Origin: Methanoculleus formosensis
GTDB taxonomy: Archaea; Halobacteriota; Methanomicrobia; Methanomicrobiales; Methanoculleaceae
NCBI RefSeq assembly: GCF_025384765.1
Contig: NZ_VHLL01000010.1
Span: forward strand, 1 to 56,839
DNA: 56,839 nucleotides
Direction: 5' to 3'
Shown: positions 46,641-54,297 of the stretch, piece after piece
Layout: the number at the start of each line of letters is the position of its first letter
Position numbering within the stretch: the first letter of the stretch is position 1
Made by a program: the position numbers and the translations under genes
The notes under the pieces: generated by a model
Told to the model about the DNA's origin: nothing
Seen by the model: the letters and a program-made list of their open reading frames with translations, nothing else
Databases searched by the model: none

Positions 46641-46802
46641 AAGTGCCCGGAGGTCGGCACCGTCAGCCAGGGTCGAGCGGTGGAGGAGGCGGTAGCCAAC
46701 CTCAAGGAGGCTACGGAGCTGTACTTAGAAGAATTCCCGCTGGAAGACGGAAGAAGGCCGATCATCACGACGTTTGAGGTGACCGGGGGTGCCCAGGCTT
46801 AA
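46632..46802 (+). pseudogene. hicB: HicB antitoxin, N-terminally truncated
   Basis: 56 residues from GTG 46632: VKCPEVGTVSQGRAVEEAVA, LKEATELYLEEFPLEDG, then RRPIITTFEVTGGAQA. This is the HicB partial RNase H-like fold minus its first strand; full proteins start about 10-15 residues earlier. The lost part is replaced by the RhuM fragment. It overlaps the start of the HicA remnant, as in a normal hicBA pair. Confidence 0.72.
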
Positions 46803-46908
46803 GCTGGTATCGGGCGAAACCGTGGTAAAGATACTCTCAAAACAGTATGGATTTGTCGTCAGCGGGCAGACCGGGAGCCATGTGCGCCTGTCCACGGCAG
46901 AGGGGTGA
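46789..46908 (+). pseudogene. hicA: HicA toxin, C-terminally truncated
   Basis: 39 residues from GTG 46789: PRLKLVSGETVVKILSKQYG, then FVVSGQTGSHVRLSTAEG and stop. HicA RNases are usually about 75 residues and keep a catalytic His in G-S-H; here GSH is present, but the second half, including the C-terminal strand and helix, is gone. The stop (46906-46908) touches the stop of the HepT remnant on the other strand (46909), so this is the join between two pieces of DNA. Confidence 0.72.
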
Positions 46909-47254
46909 TCAGGCATCCTCGTCATCGAGCATCTGCCGGACCACAACCTGTAGTTCAGGGATCTTGTTCCGGATAACGTCCCACACGATCTCGTTATGGA
47001 TCCCGAAGTATGCGTGAATGAGGATATCCCGCATCCCTGCAATTTTCTCCAGGTAATATCGGCATGTTCGCATTTCAGCGGTTCGGGGATGAGTTTGACG
47101 GCCTCACCAATGACCATTAGGTTCCGGATTACTCCGTCCTGCACCAGGTCGTTTGCCAGGAACTCTTCGTAGTCCATTCCCCGGGTGTATCGGTTAATTC
47201 TCCCGATAGCCTCGAAGGTTGGTCGCGGAGATAGAGGTTATACTCCCGGGACAT
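46909..47254 (-). pseudogene. hepT: HepT-like HEPN toxin with two frameshifts
   Basis: Three frames are needed to read the protein. MSREYNLYLRD starts at 47254 inside the end of mntA. EAIGRINRYTRGMDYEEFLA and VIRNLMVIGEAVKLIPEPL follow after a shift near 47215. IAGMRDILIHAYFGIHNEIV to the end MLDDEDA follows after a second shift at an A4 run near 47047, consistent with one missing A. The catalytic R-x4-H-x-Y (RDILIHAY) is intact but out of frame. HepT is an RNase toxin neutralised by AMP-adding MntA. Two shifts make programmed recoding unlikely. Confidence 0.8.
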
Positions 47255-47540
47255 ACCGAACGCTCCGGAGGATATGCGGTGCGAGAGCCGGTTTTATGGC
47301 ATCGCGGTCGACCAGATCGACTCTTCTCCCGAAGAGGTCTTCGAGGAAGAACTTGAGGTCCATGTACGTGTCAAAGGAGCGCCCTCCCTCCGTGAACTCG
47401 ATGAGGATATCGATATCGCTCTCTTCGCGCTCTTCGCCCCGGGCAAACGATCCGAAGACCCCGATCCGCCGAACGCCCATGCTCCTGATCCGTTCGCGGT
47501 GTTCCGCCAGCGCACCGAGGATGCCGTCAACCGTAAGCAT
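47238..47540 (-). CDS. mntA: MntA minimal nucleotidyltransferase (antitoxin)
   Basis: A 100-residue protein with the minimal nucleotidyltransferase signature GSFARGEEREESDIDILIEF, that is G-S-x10-D-x-D. This is followed by DLKFFLEDLFGRRVDLVDRD, holding the third acidic residue. MntA antitoxins silence HepT by adding AMP to a tyrosine next to its active site. The downstream hepT starts within its last codons (17 nt overlap), the usual layout, but hepT is broken. So this antitoxin survives without a working local target. Confidence 0.85.
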   Translation of the reverse strand: MLTVDGILGALAEHRERIRSMGVRRIGVFGSFARGEEREESDIDILIEFTEGGRSFDTYMDLKFFLEDLFGRRVDLVDRDAIKPALAPHILRSVRYVPGV

Positions 47541-47665: not shown

Positions 47666-50572
47666 TCACCTCACCCCCTCCCGGCCGTTCCACTCCCGCA
47701 CCAGCCTCGCATAGCACCCCTCGCAGATATTCGCCTCCCGCGAGCGGTAGACCGCCTTCCCCGTCCTGCAGACGTCGCACCGGCCGAGTTCGACCTTCAC
47801 CCGCGCAAACGCCTGGTGGTCGAGGACCCCCGGGAGCGGCTGCACCTTTGCCGGCCGTTTCGCTCTCTTGAGGCAGTCGTAGCAGAGATATGCTCCCCCG
47901 CCGCGTTTGACCGATGACGTCGGCCGCCGGCCGCAGACGTGACAGGGCTCGTCTTTTGCGACCGGGAGGGGGATGTAATTCGCGGGGTTGACCGGAGGCG
48001 AAGAGTGACAGCGGATTTCAGCACGTTGACAGCAGGTGCTGTCATCGAGCGGTGCGATAATTGAGGCATGTTCCTCCTTTGAGCCGCAATACGTGAAGTT
48101 CTCGTTTTGAATGACAGCAATGCGGGAAACAGAGGCACCCCCACCATCACCGCGAGTCTTCTCACCTGCGCTCTCCGTTTTCTCATTCTGTTGTACATGT
48201 ACGTACATAGATCGATCTCTATCAGGATCCTGAACGTCTTTCACTGAACCCTCCTCATTCTGACCCTCGTCTCGATGACAGCAGTTGCTGTCATTCTGCT
48301 GAAACCTGCTGTCATTGCTGTCATCGTCCGGGCCGTCGTCCAGCCAGACCGTGGCACCGCTGCTCCAGGCCCGGTAGACCTCGATATCGAACGTGAAATA
48401 CTGCTCCCGGCGGCGGACCGTGACCCCGCACCCGCCATCCTCCGTCACGGTGGCGTCGTAGAGGCTGATCGCCGGGCACTTCTCCAGGAGGCCGGAGTAT
48501 GGTGTTCCCCGGCTGACGTAGCCGTTGAGGAGCCGCCGGGTCTTCTGGTACGAAAGTCCCATCGCCGCCTGGAGCTGCCGGACGGTGAAGACCTCGACCC
48601 CCATCCGTGCGACGGTCTCAAGCGCCGCCGCCTCGTTCTTCGTCAGTTTGGTCTCCTGGCCCCCGGCCGTCCCGGAGAGAGCACCGTAGAGTCTTGCCGC
48701 CGCCGCGAAGTCCTCCTCCCGGGCGATCACCGCCCCGTCCGCCCCCCGGTCGCGCTGGAGGTAGAAGAGCCGGGCATGGCACTTGATCAGGTCAAAGAGC
48801 ATGCCCGGGTTCCGGCGGTTCTGGGTCGTCGAGAACTGGACCCGCCGGGCGAACGGGATCCGGACGGGGAGGATCTCCGCTTTGACGGCCTCCCAGATCG
48901 CCCGGCAGACGAGAACGTCATCCTCCTCTGTGGGGAGCGATCCGGTCGCCTCGACCTCTTTCATATGTTCGAGCACTCGTTTGTCCTGGTCGACGGAGTC
49001 ATCGATCCAGGCCGTCAGCATCCGGTTCATTACCTGGTCGTCGCCCATATCCTCAACCTTCGCGAGCCACCAGACGCACCGCTCCGGGATGGTGCAGACC
49101 CGGAGTTTCCGCTCGGTCGTGAGGGTCCGGTGCTCGATCGGCTCCCGGAAGTTTGCGGTCGCGGATTTGAGGACTTCCTGGAGGTCGTCGGAGAGCGAGA
49201 CGTCGTCGAAGAGGAGGACGGTGCCCGGCCGGAGGTCGTCGTCGTAGTAGAGCGCCTTATTGGAGACCGTGCCCTTGAGTTTGTAGGCGTCAGGGATGAG
49301 GTTCTGCATCGTCGTGCAGGCGTGGGTCTTGCCCTTCCCGGAGTTCCCGGAGACGGCGACGTGCAGCCCGTTCGTGTTCTCGACGGATTGTGACGCAAGC
49401 GACATCGCGAGACACTCCGCGACCGTCCGATCGCCGACGTGGGCTTTGTTGAAGGTCCCGAGGAGGAAGGCGAGCGGGTCGCCGTGCCGGAGGATCTCCA
49501 TCGCCCGATGACGGTGCTCGTCAACGGGAGGAGGGGAGGGGGGCTGCTCCTCCTGCTCCTTCTTCCCCGTCGCCTTCTCCTCTGGCTTGCGCCCCTTCTT
49601 CTCATACATCTCCCGGAGTTCCGGCCACCGCTGGGCGCCCCCGCCGCAACTCGCGTGGTGGCAGCCGGCGAAGATCGCGCCGTTCGCAAACTGGATCGCG
49701 AAGGCGCCATCCTTGTGCGCCGACGAGAACGGGCACTCGGCGAGGACGTAGAGGGTGCCGCCCTGCCAGGGCCGTGTCGACCGGACGGCGATGCCGTGGC
49801 CCGCGAGCCAGGCGGCGAGGTCGATGCTGGCTTTCGGCCGCGACGGCTCTTCCCGGGGGAGGAGCCCGGCGAGGTGCTCCAGGCGCTCCACTGGAACGAC
49901 CCCGATATCCGCAGGAACCGCGAGGATCCTCGCCCGCCGGTGCGGTCGCTCCACCGTGCTGTCGCCCTTCCGGGAGAGCGTGCCGTAGAGTTTCCAGATC
50001 CGGGCGGCGTTGTGGTTCGCGGTATCGACGGTGACGGCCTCGTTCGAGAAGAGGGCGTCGAGGGTGGCAAGCGCACCCTTCACGACCTCCGTTGCCGTCT
50101 CGTCGTTTGGAAGGTCGATCCTGTACAACAGGTGCGCCCCGTTCCCGGAGTCCGCCCGGATGGGCGCCGGGAACCCCTGCTCCTTGAGGTATGCCGCGAT
50201 CCGCTCCGCTGCATTGAGCGCCGCGGTATGCTCCGCATCGGTCGAGGAGACCCCGCTCGGCCGGACGGGGTCGATGTCGACCGGAAGCCAGCGCCGGCGG
50301 AGGATGTCGGCGTCGGCGGTGGTGGCGTCTTTCCGGGAGAGCCGCATCTTGATCCGGTTCGCCCGCCGGGCGAGGAGGGCGGGGTTCACGGCATTCAAGG
50401 TGACATAGACCCCGGCGACCGCCGGATCGGCGTCAAGGGCCTCGACCTGCTCCGCGAGCAGAGTATAGTCGTCGAAGTAGCCCGAATGTGTCGCGCCGTC
50501 GGCGAGCGCCCGGACCTCGACCACCCCGCCGGGGGCGAGGGTGCTAACCGCACTCAGGATCTCGCTGCTCAC
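47666..50572 (-). CDS. Plasmid/virus-type primase-helicase
   Basis: 968 residues in several modules. An AEP-like primase part has WLPVDIDPVRPSGV (D-x-D, about residue 97), RADSGNGAHLLYRIDL (about 144) and NHNAARIWKLYGTLSRKG (about 190). A Cys/His group, CHHASCGGG, follows. A helicase-type ATPase has Walker A AVSGNSGKGKTHAC (about 410) and TVLLFDDVSLSDDL. A winged-helix region has VRQLQAAMGLSYQKTRRLL. Next comes a long Asp/Asn/Ser/Gln-rich linker. Two zinc ribbons, CHVCGRR...CYDC and CDVCRTGK...CEGC, close it. It starts at GTG overlapping the upstream stop (GTGA). Its likely role is priming and unwinding during replication of the integrated element. Confidence 0.75.
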   Translation of the reverse strand: MSSEILSAVSTLAPGGVVEVRALADGATHSGYFDDYTLLAEQVEALDADPAVAGVYVTLNAVNPALLARRANRIKMRLSRKDATTADADILRRRWLPVDIDPVRPSGVSSTDAEHTAALNAAERIAAYLKEQGFPAPIRADSGNGAHLLYRIDLPNDETATEVVKGALATLDALFSNEAVTVDTANHNAARIWKLYGTLSRKGDSTVERPHRRARILAVPADIGVVPVERLEHLAGLLPREEPSRPKASIDLAAWLAGHGIAVRSTRPWQGGTLYVLAECPFSSAHKDGAFAIQFANGAIFAGCHHASCGGGAQRWPELREMYEKKGRKPEEKATGKKEQEEQPPSPPPVDEHRHRAMEILRHGDPLAFLLGTFNKAHVGDRTVAECLAMSLASQSVENTNGLHVAVSGNSGKGKTHACTTMQNLIPDAYKLKGTVSNKALYYDDDLRPGTVLLFDDVSLSDDLQEVLKSATANFREPIEHRTLTTERKLRVCTIPERCVWWLAKVEDMGDDQVMNRMLTAWIDDSVDQDKRVLEHMKEVEATGSLPTEEDDVLVCRAIWEAVKAEILPVRIPFARRVQFSTTQNRRNPGMLFDLIKCHARLFYLQRDRGADGAVIAREEDFAAAARLYGALSGTAGGQETKLTKNEAAALETVARMGVEVFTVRQLQAAMGLSYQKTRRLLNGYVSRGTPYSGLLEKCPAISLYDATVTEDGGCGVTVRRREQYFTFDIEVYRAWSSGATVWLDDGPDDDSNDSRFQQNDSNCCHRDEGQNEEGSVKDVQDPDRDRSMYVHVQQNEKTESAGEKTRGDGGGASVSRIAVIQNENFTYCGSKEEHASIIAPLDDSTCCQRAEIRCHSSPPVNPANYIPLPVAKDEPCHVCGRRPTSSVKRGGGAYLCYDCLKRAKRPAKVQPLPGVLDHQAFARVKVELGRCDVCRTGKAVYRSREANICEGCYARLVREWNGREGVR
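48027..48324. repeat. Cluster of seven TGACAGCA half-sites (iteron-like)
   Basis: Exact TGACAGCA or its complement occurs at 48027-48034, 48037-48044, 48112-48119, 48276-48283, 48286-48293, 48307-48314 and 48316-48323. Two pairs form palindromes with a 2-nt centre (48027-48044 and 48275-48294, the latter with 9-bp arms). The last two are direct tandem copies. All lie in the linker of the primase gene. Because one copy (48111) is in a different codon frame from the others, protein repetition does not explain them. Confidence 0.75.
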
Positions 50573-50883
50573 CCCGTCACCCCCGGCACCAGCGGGAAGA
50601 GAGGAGCACTCACCGCCTCCCCGCGGGCGACCCGCTGGAAACTGATGAGCGGGATGATGAAGGAGCCGGCGCGGGTATGGAGCATCACCGCTTTGCCGGA
50701 AGCGTTCATCGCCGCATGCCCCTCGATGACGAGCCCGTCCGCGGCCGCCTGCGTGATCGGGACGACACGGCCGTAGAAGAGGAGGTTCCTGATATCCCCG
50801 GCATCGATCCGGTAGCGCTCGGCCTCGACGGAGATCCGGAGCACCCCGTCGGGGCCGGGGCTGAGGGTTCCCGGCTCCATCAT
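50569..50883 (-). CDS. Small unknown protein of the replicon operon
   Basis: 104 residues from the ATG ATG at 50883, overlapping the upstream stop (ATGA), and ending in the GTGA that starts the primase. GVLRISVEAERYRIDAGDIR, GRVVPITQAAADGLVIEG and AVMLHTRAGSFIIPLISFQR suggest an all-beta fold. No known domain is recognised. Coupling to the primase implies a role in replication or its control. Confidence 0.65.
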   Translation of the reverse strand: MMEPGTLSPGPDGVLRISVEAERYRIDAGDIRNLLFYGRVVPITQAAADGLVIEGHAAMNASGKAVMLHTRAGSFIIPLISFQRVARGEAVSAPLFPLVPGVTG

Positions 50884-51341: not shown

Positions 51342-52508
51342 TTACGAAACCTCGTGCTCAGTCCGGGTTTTTGCGGGTTTCGTCCGGACACCGCAGGCAG
51401 CGGCCACGTCCCCGGCGTCATACCGGAGCCGGACTTCCCGCCCCTTACCCACCCGGGGCACGAGATCGACGATCCCGATCTCTGCGAGGTGGTTCAGGTG
51501 CTCGTGGTAGGACGTCTTTCCGACCGGGAGGTACTCCCGGGCCGCCTCGAAGACCGCCCCCGAGGTCATCTCTCTCCCTTCCCGCGACCGCTCCGCGATC
51601 CGGGAGAGGAGCGCCCGCTCGCCCGCCGAGAGTTCCACGGCCCGGCTCCGGAGCGACGGCGCGGTGATCACCCGGGCTGCGGCTGTCACGTCGTCGGGGC
51701 CGACCCGGCGGCGCCCGTCCCTCTCCGCCCGCTGGACCGCTCCCCGGAGTAGGTCGATCCCGATCCGGACGTCCTGCTCGTCGGCGGCGATCTGCGCGAT
51801 GCGGTCGAGGAGGACCTTCGAGATCACCCCCGGGTAGAGCCCCTGCCGGGCGCGGTCGGTGAGGATCTCCCGGACCTCGGTCTTCGTGTAGGGCCAGAAG
51901 GTGACCTCGGTCGGGTGGAAGACCGACCGGACGCTCGGGTCGGCCTCCGCGTAGAGGTTCAGGGCAAGATCGCTCGTGATCGCGAAGACTCCGGCTTTCC
52001 GGACGTCCCACTTCTCGTAGAGCCGGAGGAGCTGGTAGAGGAGGAGGTTGTAGGTCCCGGCCGCGATGAGGTAGTTTGCATCGTCGAGGCAGACGACGAG
52101 TGCAGCGTTCTCGTCATGGAGCCGGGCGGCGATCCCCTGCTTGATCTCGTCGAGGTACCGGCCGGCCGACGGCGCCGGGCAGCCGCAGACCTGCGCGAAG
52201 ATGCTCCGGTAGACCGCGAGCGCCGTGCGATCGTGCCGGCAGTTGACGTAGACCGGGACGATCTTCCGGGTCTCCTCCCTGACCTCACGAAAGACCCGGC
52301 GGACGGTGGTGGTCTTTCCCGTCCCCGGCGGGCCGCGGAGGACGGCGCTCCCCGTGCTCGCGCCCCGGAGGGCCGGCCGGAGGAGGAAGGCGAGTTCCCG
52401 GACCTGGGCGTCGCGGTGGTGGAGGTGGTCGGGGAGATACGTGAACTCGAAGACGTCCGGGTCGCGAAAGAGGGTCTGGTCGCTACGGAGAAGAGAGGAA
52501 TGCGTCAT
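51342..52508 (-). CDS. Orc1/Cdc6-type replication initiator
   Basis: A 388-residue AAA+ protein. MTHSSLLRSDQTLFRDPDVF opens it. Walker A is VLRGPPGTGKTTTVRRVF. The Walker B region is ALVVCLDDANYLIAAG, where the usual D-E reads D-D. Sensor region GVFAITSDLALNLYAEADPS follows, then the lid, and a C-terminal winged helix (YLPVGKTSYHEHLNHLAEIG). It would bind an origin and load a helicase, here probably of the integrated element whose primase lies downstream. Its 5' end and upstream 70 nt exist again, truncated, at 53676-53843. The stretch 51198-51341 downstream of it shows no gene. Confidence 0.87.
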   Translation of the reverse strand: MTHSSLLRSDQTLFRDPDVFEFTYLPDHLHHRDAQVRELAFLLRPALRGASTGSAVLRGPPGTGKTTTVRRVFREVREETRKIVPVYVNCRHDRTALAVYRSIFAQVCGCPAPSAGRYLDEIKQGIAARLHDENAALVVCLDDANYLIAAGTYNLLLYQLLRLYEKWDVRKAGVFAITSDLALNLYAEADPSVRSVFHPTEVTFWPYTKTEVREILTDRARQGLYPGVISKVLLDRIAQIAADEQDVRIGIDLLRGAVQRAERDGRRRVGPDDVTAAARVITAPSLRSRAVELSAGERALLSRIAERSREGREMTSGAVFEAAREYLPVGKTSYHEHLNHLAEIGIVDLVPRVGKGREVRLRYDAGDVAAACGVRTKPAKTRTEHEVS

Positions 52509-52631: not shown

Positions 52632-53051
52632 TTACCCAAACCGCTGTCGGGCCAGAACGAGGGTTCGATGAGCCAGCCGGATGCAGAACGCTGCTTCTTC
52701 TTCGCATACAAGCGATCCGCTGTACTGAACATTGTGCCTGGCAACCCGCAGTTTATCAAAGGCGTTCAGGAGACCGGCGATCTCAGGGTCGTCACCGGAG
52801 GCATGCCGTACTGCGGTAACGAGACAGGCGTGGCTCCGCTCGACGTAACCTGCAGCGTAGAGAAATGTCCGGACACTATGAAACGCACTGTTGTAGGCGG
52901 CGAGATGAGCCATCTCGTACTCTTCGATCGCCACGTTCTTCTCTGCGGCGCGAAGGAACCTCGCCGCAGATGCGATCGAACCGGGAATGCGCTCCACCGC
53001 TCCGGGATAAGGGCGGATAAGGCCGCGGTCGACGCACTCCTGCCACCTCAT
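52632..53051 (-). CDS. HEPN-domain protein (probable toxin)
   Basis: 139 residues from ATG 53051, overlapping the upstream stop as ATGA. It is all-helical. VAIEEYEMAHLAAYNSAFHS and VRTFLYAAGYVERSHACLV form the core helices. FDKLRVARHNVQYSG is the HEPN motif region, with R-x3-H-N rather than the usual R-x4-6-H. HEPN proteins encoded with a nucleotidyltransferase are typically RNase toxins modified by their partner. Both genes are intact, unlike the MntA/HepT pair 5 kb away. Confidence 0.78.
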   Translation of the reverse strand: MRWQECVDRGLIRPYPGAVERIPGSIASAARFLRAAEKNVAIEEYEMAHLAAYNSAFHSVRTFLYAAGYVERSHACLVTAVRHASGDDPEIAGLLNAFDKLRVARHNVQYSGSLVCEEEAAFCIRLAHRTLVLARQRFG

Positions 53052-53593
53052 AGGCGAGCCCCTCCGACAAGCATGTGGTTTTGCAGGACACTCGCGACAA
53101 ACGGGTCTTTGTCCTCTTTCATCCGCTCCCACCGGTAGTAGGGGACGACCGTCAACTGCACCTCTCGATCGGTCTCCGCCTCCAGTGCCGGTAACCGGCC
53201 GTGGTCGACCTGAATCTCGTCACCGATGATCAGGATGTCGATGTCGCTCTGCTCATCGAAGGTCCCTGCCGCAGTGCTCCCATAGACCGCGACCGCGATG
53301 CTTTCGGGCGCAAGGTCCTCGATGCCGGCCCGGGCGAGGAGGAGGGCCATGCAGGCCCGCTTCAACTCCCGGACGGCAAAGGAGTCGTTGTCGAGGGAGA
53401 GGAGCCGTGCGGTGCCGAGGCGCGTGACGGTGATCAACCCGTCGCGCTCGAAGGCATCGGCATACGCTTTGACGCTTCCCGGGCTGACCCCAAGCTCCCG
53501 GGCGAGTTTATTGATGTGGATCTCGCCCGTGGGGTGGGTGAGGAACCAGGCAAGGACCCGGAACCCGACAAACCTCTCGAACTCCTGAAACAT
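53048..53593 (-). CDS. HTH-nucleotidyltransferase (probable antitoxin and repressor)
   Basis: 181 residues from ATG 53593. The N-terminal third is a winged helix-turn-helix (FVGFRVLAWFLTHPTGEIHI, then KLARELGVSPGSVKAYADAF). The C-terminal part is a minimal nucleotidyltransferase: AVAVYGSTAAGTFDEQSDID, G-S-x10-D-x-D, followed by REVQLTVVPYYRWERM. So one protein can both bind DNA and modify the HEPN partner. A near-perfect 18-bp palindrome sits over its promoter (53601-53618), a probable self-repression site. The frame stays open upstream through the orc1 duplicate, but conserved sequence begins at 53593. Confidence 0.82.
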   Translation of the reverse strand: MFQEFERFVGFRVLAWFLTHPTGEIHINKLARELGVSPGSVKAYADAFERDGLITVTRLGTARLLSLDNDSFAVRELKRACMALLLARAGIEDLAPESIAVAVYGSTAAGTFDEQSDIDILIIGDEIQVDHGRLPALEAETDREVQLTVVPYYRWERMKEDKDPFVASVLQNHMLVGGARL

Positions 53594-53600
53594 ACAATGT

Positions 53601-53625
53601 ATTGAATGATCGTTCAATATATTAA
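53601..53625 (-). promoter_or_regulatory. TATA box and palindromic operator of the HTH-NTase/HEPN pair
   Basis: ATTGAATGATCGTTCAAT (53601-53618) is an 18-bp palindrome with one mismatched pair. It overlaps an AT-rich promoter box (TTTAATATATTG on the minus strand, 53614-53625) and ends 8 nt before the ATG at 53593. A dimeric HTH protein bound here would block the promoter; the HTH domain of the first gene is the obvious candidate. Confidence 0.6.
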
Positions 53626-53654
53626 ACGGATTTGGAGCAGAAGATCCGGCACTG

Positions 53655-53776
53655 GAGGAGTCAGACAGGTTCCGGGCGTCGTGGTGGAGGTGGTCGGAGA
53701 GACGATCCGCGAACTTAAAGACGTCCGGGTCGCGAAAGAGGGTCTGGTCGCTACGGAGAAGAGAGGGATACGCCAT
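53655..53776 (-). pseudogene. Truncated second orc1/cdc6 (5' end only)
   Basis: MAYPSLLRSDQTLFRDPDVF from 53776, then a short stretch DHLHHDAR, closely copy the first 33 or so residues of the intact initiator at 51342-52508 (17 of the first 20 residues identical). Homology then stops before Walker A. It is the coding part of the right-hand direct repeat. Confidence 0.8.
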
Positions 53777-53843
53777 AAGAGAGACTGGAGAAGAGGTAAT
53801 AGATAACGAGGGGCCGTGCGCGGGTTGAAAGTGAAGAAGGGCG
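53676..53843. repeat. Direct repeat, right copy
   Basis: Second copy of the orc1 5' region, same orientation as 52409-52576 and about 1.27 kb away. It carries its own differences, including small insertions and substitutions, so the duplication is not recent. Confidence 0.8.
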
Positions 53844-53876
53844 AGCAGCCGCAACTGCGGGTTCCCGGTAAGGAAG

Positions 53877-54037
53877 TTACTCCGCCTGCAGGGTCCCGCT
53901 GATCCGATCGATGACCAATGTGACGGCCCGGTCGTTGGGGTGGCCCCAGCGACAAGAACCGGTCGCCGTTTCACCGTTGAGAGGCCCGAGAAAGGAAACG
54001 GTACAACGACAACAGCGCCCCTCACAAATTGCTCCAC
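53877..54037 (-). pseudogene. MazF/PemK-like toxin, internally deleted
   Basis: From GTG 54037, behind GAGGAGGAAGAGG: VEQFVRGAVVVVPFPFSGLS, TVKRRPVLVAGATP. This is the standard MazF N-terminus, with R-G-x-V and K-R-R-P. Then, in another frame, NDRAVTLVIDRISGTLQAE and stop looks like the last helix of the family. About 60 middle residues are missing. Its former antitoxin would be upstream (54038-54290), where only unrecognisable sequence remains. Confidence 0.68.
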
Positions 54038-54297
54038 GCCTCTTCCTCCTCGGGTCGGAGCCAATCTTTCCGGAGCGCGGGCTCGCTCGCCTCGCCGCCA
54101 CGTTTATCGGTTCTCCTCTCGCTCTCCTGGTTATCGGGCGAGACTGGCGATGCCGATAGGTGTGAGAGGAGCTGCTCGGGGCACGATCCCCCGGCATTAC
54201 GCCGACGAGGACACCGATCGAGACAATCCCGGGGCCTGGCCCCGATGGGGTCTCAACCGTCTCGCCGTGAACGGGAACGGATAGAGGAGGCGATACA

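Follow-up and report, generated by a model that had tools for sequence, protein, structure and literature searches.

One origin that lies inside a gene is that of phage lambda (and also of Stx phages), whose iterons and A+T-rich region are in the middle of the gene for the initiator O, which binds them (PMC7466680). The initiator helicases Rep from SaPI and Cch2 from SCCmec, which act in the replication of mobile genetic elements, are AAA+ proteins whose C-terminal domain recognizes short repeats (PMC7581432). For the PrimPol-PV1 primases (PolpTN2, and PrimQH with MCM-type helicases), a winged helix has been suggested to recognize the origin, and no site was given (Kazlauskas 2018, PMC5862659). 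Finally, pME2001/pMTBMA4 from Methanothermobacter is a free plasmid whose replicon has been used in a shuttle vector (PMC8609365).

We propose that an integrated archaeal element in Methanoculleus formosensis has its replication origin, an array of initiator-binding iterons, within the gene that encodes its own initiator. We put the probability of this reading at roughly 0.8; the binding and the origin activity are inferred from sequence comparisons. To our knowledge, hardly anything is known about the replication origins of mobile elements from methanogens. The gene is in a 56,839-nt stretch of DNA (contig NZ_VHLL01000010.1, positions 1 to 56,839), which we analysed as a whole and refer to as the window.

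As in lambda, the repeated sites lie within the coding sequence of an initiator and an A+T-richer region lies beside them. But O is neither a helicase nor a primase, whereas the protein from M. formosensis seems to combine an AEP-type primase, an MCM-fold helicase, and a winged helix in one chain; also, this system is archaeal, and its sites vary by lineage along with their putative reader. What it would share with SaPI Rep and SCCmec Cch2 is an AAA+ helicase with a C-terminal part that recognizes repeats (predicted, in our case) in the replication of a mobile element. In those systems, however, the repeats are reported to be downstream of the gene or intergenic, and the primase is a separate protein. 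By domain make-up (primase domain, helicase, and winged helix), our protein resembles the PrimPol-PV1 primases, and the difference is that we propose a site, its location, and candidate specificity residues. The Rep protein of pME2001/pMTBMA4 (NC_014409) is 22% identical to our protein across amino acids 365-698 (the helicase and the winged helix), but the alignment begins at the helicase, without a match to the primase domain. The pME2001 rep gene contains three copies of a 10-mer, GTGTTTCCCA, after the winged helix, which is the same place as the array; with a tolerance of 2 mismatches, this repeat is no more frequent than by chance, and we treat the cluster as a lead only.

The primase-helicase and the half-sites in its gene

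The gene and the relevant parts of its product are:

47666-50572, minus strand: gene for an AEP-type primase / MCM-fold AAA+ helicase / winged-helix initiator of 968 amino acids (the GTG start is the mechanical start of the open reading frame)
48473-48640, minus strand: winged-helix domain, about amino acids 645-700, the proposed reader of the half-sites (from predicted secondary structure and covariation)
48524-48553, minus strand: recognition helix SYQKTRRLLN, amino acids 674-683, in which residues 676 and 677 track base 3 of the half-site
48512-48514, minus strand: wing residue S687, which tracks base 6 of the half-site
47999-48334, minus strand: linker, amino acids 747-858, which carries the array and is predicted to be disordered (pLDDT 22-36)

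The apparent domain order is an N-terminal AEP-type primase, the MCM-fold AAA+ helicase, the winged helix, the disordered linker, and C-terminal zinc-finger-like modules. The AlphaFold model has a mean pLDDT of 72 and a pTM of 0.40, so the placement of the domains is uncertain. In the model, the winged helix has helices at 645-657, 664-671, and 675-683 and strands at 684-687 and 690-693. The list of fold matches contains MCM entries exclusively and covers mainly amino acids 294-731 (for example, Z of 21.8 and rmsd of 3.8 over 280 residues, at 14% identity, to 7pfo_4, a human MCM4 chain). MCM was absent from the Pfam matches of 25 members of the family. For the primase, sequence searches against Pfam, PHROGs, and PDB gave no informative family match, and none of the Pfam profiles matched it. 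Residues D99, D101, H147, and D183 are invariant across 25 relatives, and we take them to fit the AEP motifs as generally described (DxD, GxH, and a third acidic residue).

The 8-mer TGACAGCA occurs seven times in the window, always within 48027-48323, while 0.95 occurrences are expected and the maximum from 100 shuffles was 5. The 2.65-Mb genome as a whole has 36 matches, including these seven. Because the 8-mer read backward gives 27 matches, the 29 matches outside the array are at chance level, and the array is confined to one spot. Four of the seven sites form two copies of an 18-bp palindrome, TGACAGCANNTGCTGTCA, in which two TGACAGCA arms are separated by a 2-nt spacer; these copies (48027-48044 and 48276-48293) are the only ones in the 2.6-Mb genome. 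The sites at 48307 and 48316 are a direct tandem. Since the gene reads the same 8-mer in different ways (as DS in frame 2, as CCH or CCQ in frame 0, and as AV in frame 2, or three readings), we conclude that it is conserved at the level of DNA.

A sequence-only reading of this locus had already described the seven exact half-sites in about 300 bp, the two palindromes, and the tandem, and had held that the conservation was not an artefact of coding; our coordinates, counts, and translations bear this out. It had also viewed the linker as tolerant of such sites, which our analysis supports. It overlooked two TTTCAGCA variants, one TGACAGCG, and a weak GTACAACA. With the variants, the array extends to 48006-48323 and has about ten sites (offsets are on the gene strand):

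48316-48323, minus strand: half-site 1, TGACAGCA, exact, offset 0
48307-48314, minus strand: half-site 2, TGACAGCA, exact, offset 9
48297-48304, minus strand: half-site 3, variant TTTCAGCA, conserved offset 19
48286-48293, minus strand: half-site 4, TGACAGCA, exact, offset 30; left palindrome arm on the gene strand
48276-48283, plus strand: half-site 5, TGACAGCA, exact, offset 40; second arm of the palindrome at 48276-48293
48190-48223, no strand assigned: middle element, A+T-richer and self-complementary, GATAGAGATCGATCTATGTACGTACATGTACAAC on the gene strand
48189-48196, minus strand: weak site GTACAACA, near the conserved offset 128
48112-48119, plus strand: half-site TGACAGCA, exact, offset 204
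48037-48044, minus strand: half-site TGACAGCA, exact, offset 279; arm of the palindrome at 48027-48044
48027-48034, plus strand: half-site TGACAGCA, exact, offset 289; arm of the same palindrome
48016-48023, plus strand: variant half-site TTTCAGCA, conserved offset 300
48006-48013, plus strand: variant half-site TGACAGCG, conserved offset 310

The sites are thus laid out as five close together (0, 9, 19, 30, and 40, with steps of 9-11 bp), the weak one near 128, one on its own at 204, and four more in a second cluster (279, 289, 300, and 310). The GC content is 47-52% across the array (48000-48300) and about 66% in the surroundings, so the array is moderately, and not strongly, A+T-rich. The middle element, which is common to several close relatives, could be an unwinding element or a second binding site. 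Relatives of the Methanofollis type also have a self-complementary middle element, in a different sequence.

Recoded arrays and covariation across relatives

We found matches to the gene in 46 of the 61 genomes from the window's genus, family, and order, and the species genome collection contains 296 stretches that code for a relative. Among 80 of these 296 relatives, the named records are from Methanomicrobiales (Methanoculleus, Methanofollis, Methanogenium, Methanolinea, and Methanoregula), and a few are labelled only as Euryarchaeota. By a fixed test (at least 4 TKNCANC sites and at least 2.5 times expectation, with the TKNCANC frame defined after inspecting the data), 62 of 112 distinct relatives have a scorable array in the same linker. 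The 50 that failed this test include some whose motif is outside TKNCANC and some that are truncated; others perhaps have no array. In 45 of the 62 relatives with arrays, the density of each locus's own repeated 8-mer was computed: it is 12.1 per kb in the linker, versus 0.03 per kb (chance level) in the flanking loci.

The spacing is largely kept as well. In 46 of the 62, at least 4 of the window's 11 offsets are matched (with a tolerance of 2 nt); with random placement, this was so for 4.5 on average and for 12 at most. This holds even for the more distant relatives that we checked, whose linkers are 6-27% identical in protein sequence (60-73% in the core). The half-site itself varies by lineage (TGACAGCA, TGGCAGCA, TTACAGCA, TTTCAGCA, TTGCAACA, TTGCACC, and others), and it is replaced in concert across copies that are in different reading frames. 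This is the opposite of a motif that is lost while the linker is conserved: the array persists in recoded form as the linker protein diverges. In the linkers of two relatives (L012 and L013), part of the array is repeated in tandem and in frame, with a step of 153 nt, so that these have 14 and 17 exact sites.

The half-sites can be summarized as T[T/G]N3CAN6C, and the two variable bases are associated with different parts of the winged helix. N6 varies with wing residue 687: serine goes with G (39/39), alanine with A (9/9), and asparagine with C (6/7), while threonine and cysteine mostly go with G. N3 varies with residues 676/677: QK and MG go with A; QQ with T; SS and SG with G; and HQ and YQ mostly with G. 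In an identity-matched contrast, column 687 ranks first of about 695 for N6, and columns 677 and 676 are the top columns outside the linker for N3. (Linker columns score as well because the linker encodes the sites.) On a tree of amino acids 14-640, 687 changes along with N6 in 8 of 11 changes, which gives it rank 1 of 860 columns; the nominal p of 8e-8 treats all branches as equal and ignores branch lengths, so the rank is the safer figure. For N3, rank 1 on the tree is column 727, which is not a predicted contact, followed by 677 (rank 2) and 676 (rank 5).

Close comparisons agree with this pattern. With near-identical cores, relatives with threonine at 687 (L015 and L035) have TTGCAGCA, and those with alanine (L033, L034, and L047) have TTGCAACA. 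Wherever a cluster with at least 85% core identity contains several N6 bases, 687 differs too. When we derived the rule for N6 from L003-L052 and applied it to later, held-out relatives, 20 predictions were right, 2 were wrong, and 3 relatives had residues outside the rule; a constant prediction of G would have been correct in 16 of the 25. Across relatives, then, the sites and the putative DNA-reading residues change together, like a lock and key in one gene. From these sequence associations, the most likely binder of the array is the primase-helicase itself, via its winged-helix domain.

The window's own genome encodes a second relative (L038, at G000:C12:11586-14378), with a winged helix of type HQ..Y, SRG and with TTGCAGCA/TTCCAGCA as its sites. 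Because both the winged-helix type and the sites differ, we predict two specificities in one genome.

Other possible roles and readers for the array

The primase-helicase might bind the array as a copy-control, incompatibility, or operator site, with the origin elsewhere, but we consider this unlikely. The evidence about the binder is identical for this explanation, and iterons often act as both origin and control sites. On the other hand, the array, located about 2.2 kb inside the gene, is a long way from the gene's promoter; in the flanking loci, each locus's own 8-mer shows no enrichment, whether near promoters or elsewhere; and having a helicase and a primase in a single protein points to initiation. 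The sequence-only reading had offered an origin or a copy-control/operator array as its two options. Of these, an origin-type array fits best, given the nature of the protein, the motif cluster being the only one in the flanking loci, and the analogy with lambda O, SaPI Rep, and SCCmec Cch2.

The reader might instead be the product of a neighboring gene, as the sequence-only reading suggested. There are two candidates upstream:

51342-52508, minus strand: Orc1/Cdc6-like AAA+ protein, an optional neighbor
50569-50883, minus strand: small beta-rich protein of 104 amino acids, which overlaps the start of the primase and is the usual upstream neighbor

After comparing columns at the same loci, we judged both of these to be less likely binders. 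That Orc1 binds the array is quite improbable: although its gene is upstream in the window, it was found at just 21 of the 62 array loci, and many of the other loci had 4-10 kb of upstream sequence. At the 19-21 usable loci, the best column of Orc1 scored 0.24 for base 3 and 0.52 for base 6, versus 0.59/0.64 for primase residues 676/677 and 1.00 for 687. Conceivably, an Orc1 from the host acts at the array.

We would be still more surprised if the association were due to hitchhiking, with the winged helix and the linker recombining as one module and with another factor as the reader. These regions are next to each other in the DNA, and exchange of the whole module could therefore contribute to the association; base 6 also shows a correlation with columns 710, 739, and 745. 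But positions of the contact type rank above their neighbors, and identical pairings of residue and base recur in separate lineages (asparagine at 687 with C at base 6 is found in L011, in L046/L048, and in L123).

The small protein is a very poor candidate for the reader. It is present at 51 of the 62 array loci and overlaps the primase start, yet none of its columns tracks the half-site as well: the best scored 0.30 for base 3 and 0.19 for base 6, versus 0.38/0.45 for 676/677 and 0.81 for 687 at the same loci. We view it as a conserved partner. Its predicted structure (pLDDT 93.6) had no match in PDB at E of 0.001 or better. Lastly, although the linker is low in complexity, the shuffle controls, the three readings of the 8-mer, the concerted replacement, and the kept spacing make it scarcely credible that the array arose by chance or as a by-product of the protein sequence.

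Proposed mechanism and genomic surroundings

If the array is an origin that is read by the primase-helicase, then the winged-helix domains of several subunits would bind the helically phased half-sites, at the five-site cluster, the single site, and the four-site cluster. The A+T-richer middle would open, the attached MCM-fold ring would load there and unwind the DNA, and the attached primase domain would start synthesis. Because the sites are within DNA that codes for a freely varying linker, the reader and its sites would stay linked and change together, which may have given each lineage a private origin. We lean somewhat towards a broader interpretation, in which these archaeal initiators form a family whose winged helix follows a simple specificity code (S/T/C at 687 with G, A/G with A, and N/R with C, along with 676/677 and base 3); the origin and its reader would diversify together within one gene, and related elements in a shared cell, like the two copies in this genome, would have separate origins.

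This would provide a precise candidate origin, and its reader, for a family that has spread through Methanomicrobiales, along with a natural set of variants in origin specificity. The published guess that the winged helix of such primases recognizes the origin can now be tested with named residues and bases. These elements could also provide replicons for genetic tools in Methanomicrobiales methanogens.

We did not find a close relative in plasmid or phage records, nor did we see a free circular form of the element. A search of viral contigs with the single primase sequence had no matches. An alignment-based search identified 74 IMG/VR contigs (L182-L255), mostly with the primase part but not the rest of the protein, so that part is shared with viruses.

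In the window, the replication module is flanked by HepT/HEPN and nucleotidyltransferase (MNT-like) genes, at 46725-47540 and 52632-54064, which we presume to be of the kind that form toxin-antitoxin pairs. The end of the contig (56720-56839) consists of ten head-to-tail copies of TCGGTTACTTGT; this array may continue past the contig, or it may have ended the assembly. The open reading frame at 53048-54064 contains a repeat of an Orc1 start (75% identity across Orc1 amino acids 1-31) and is possibly a duplicated or broken copy of that gene.
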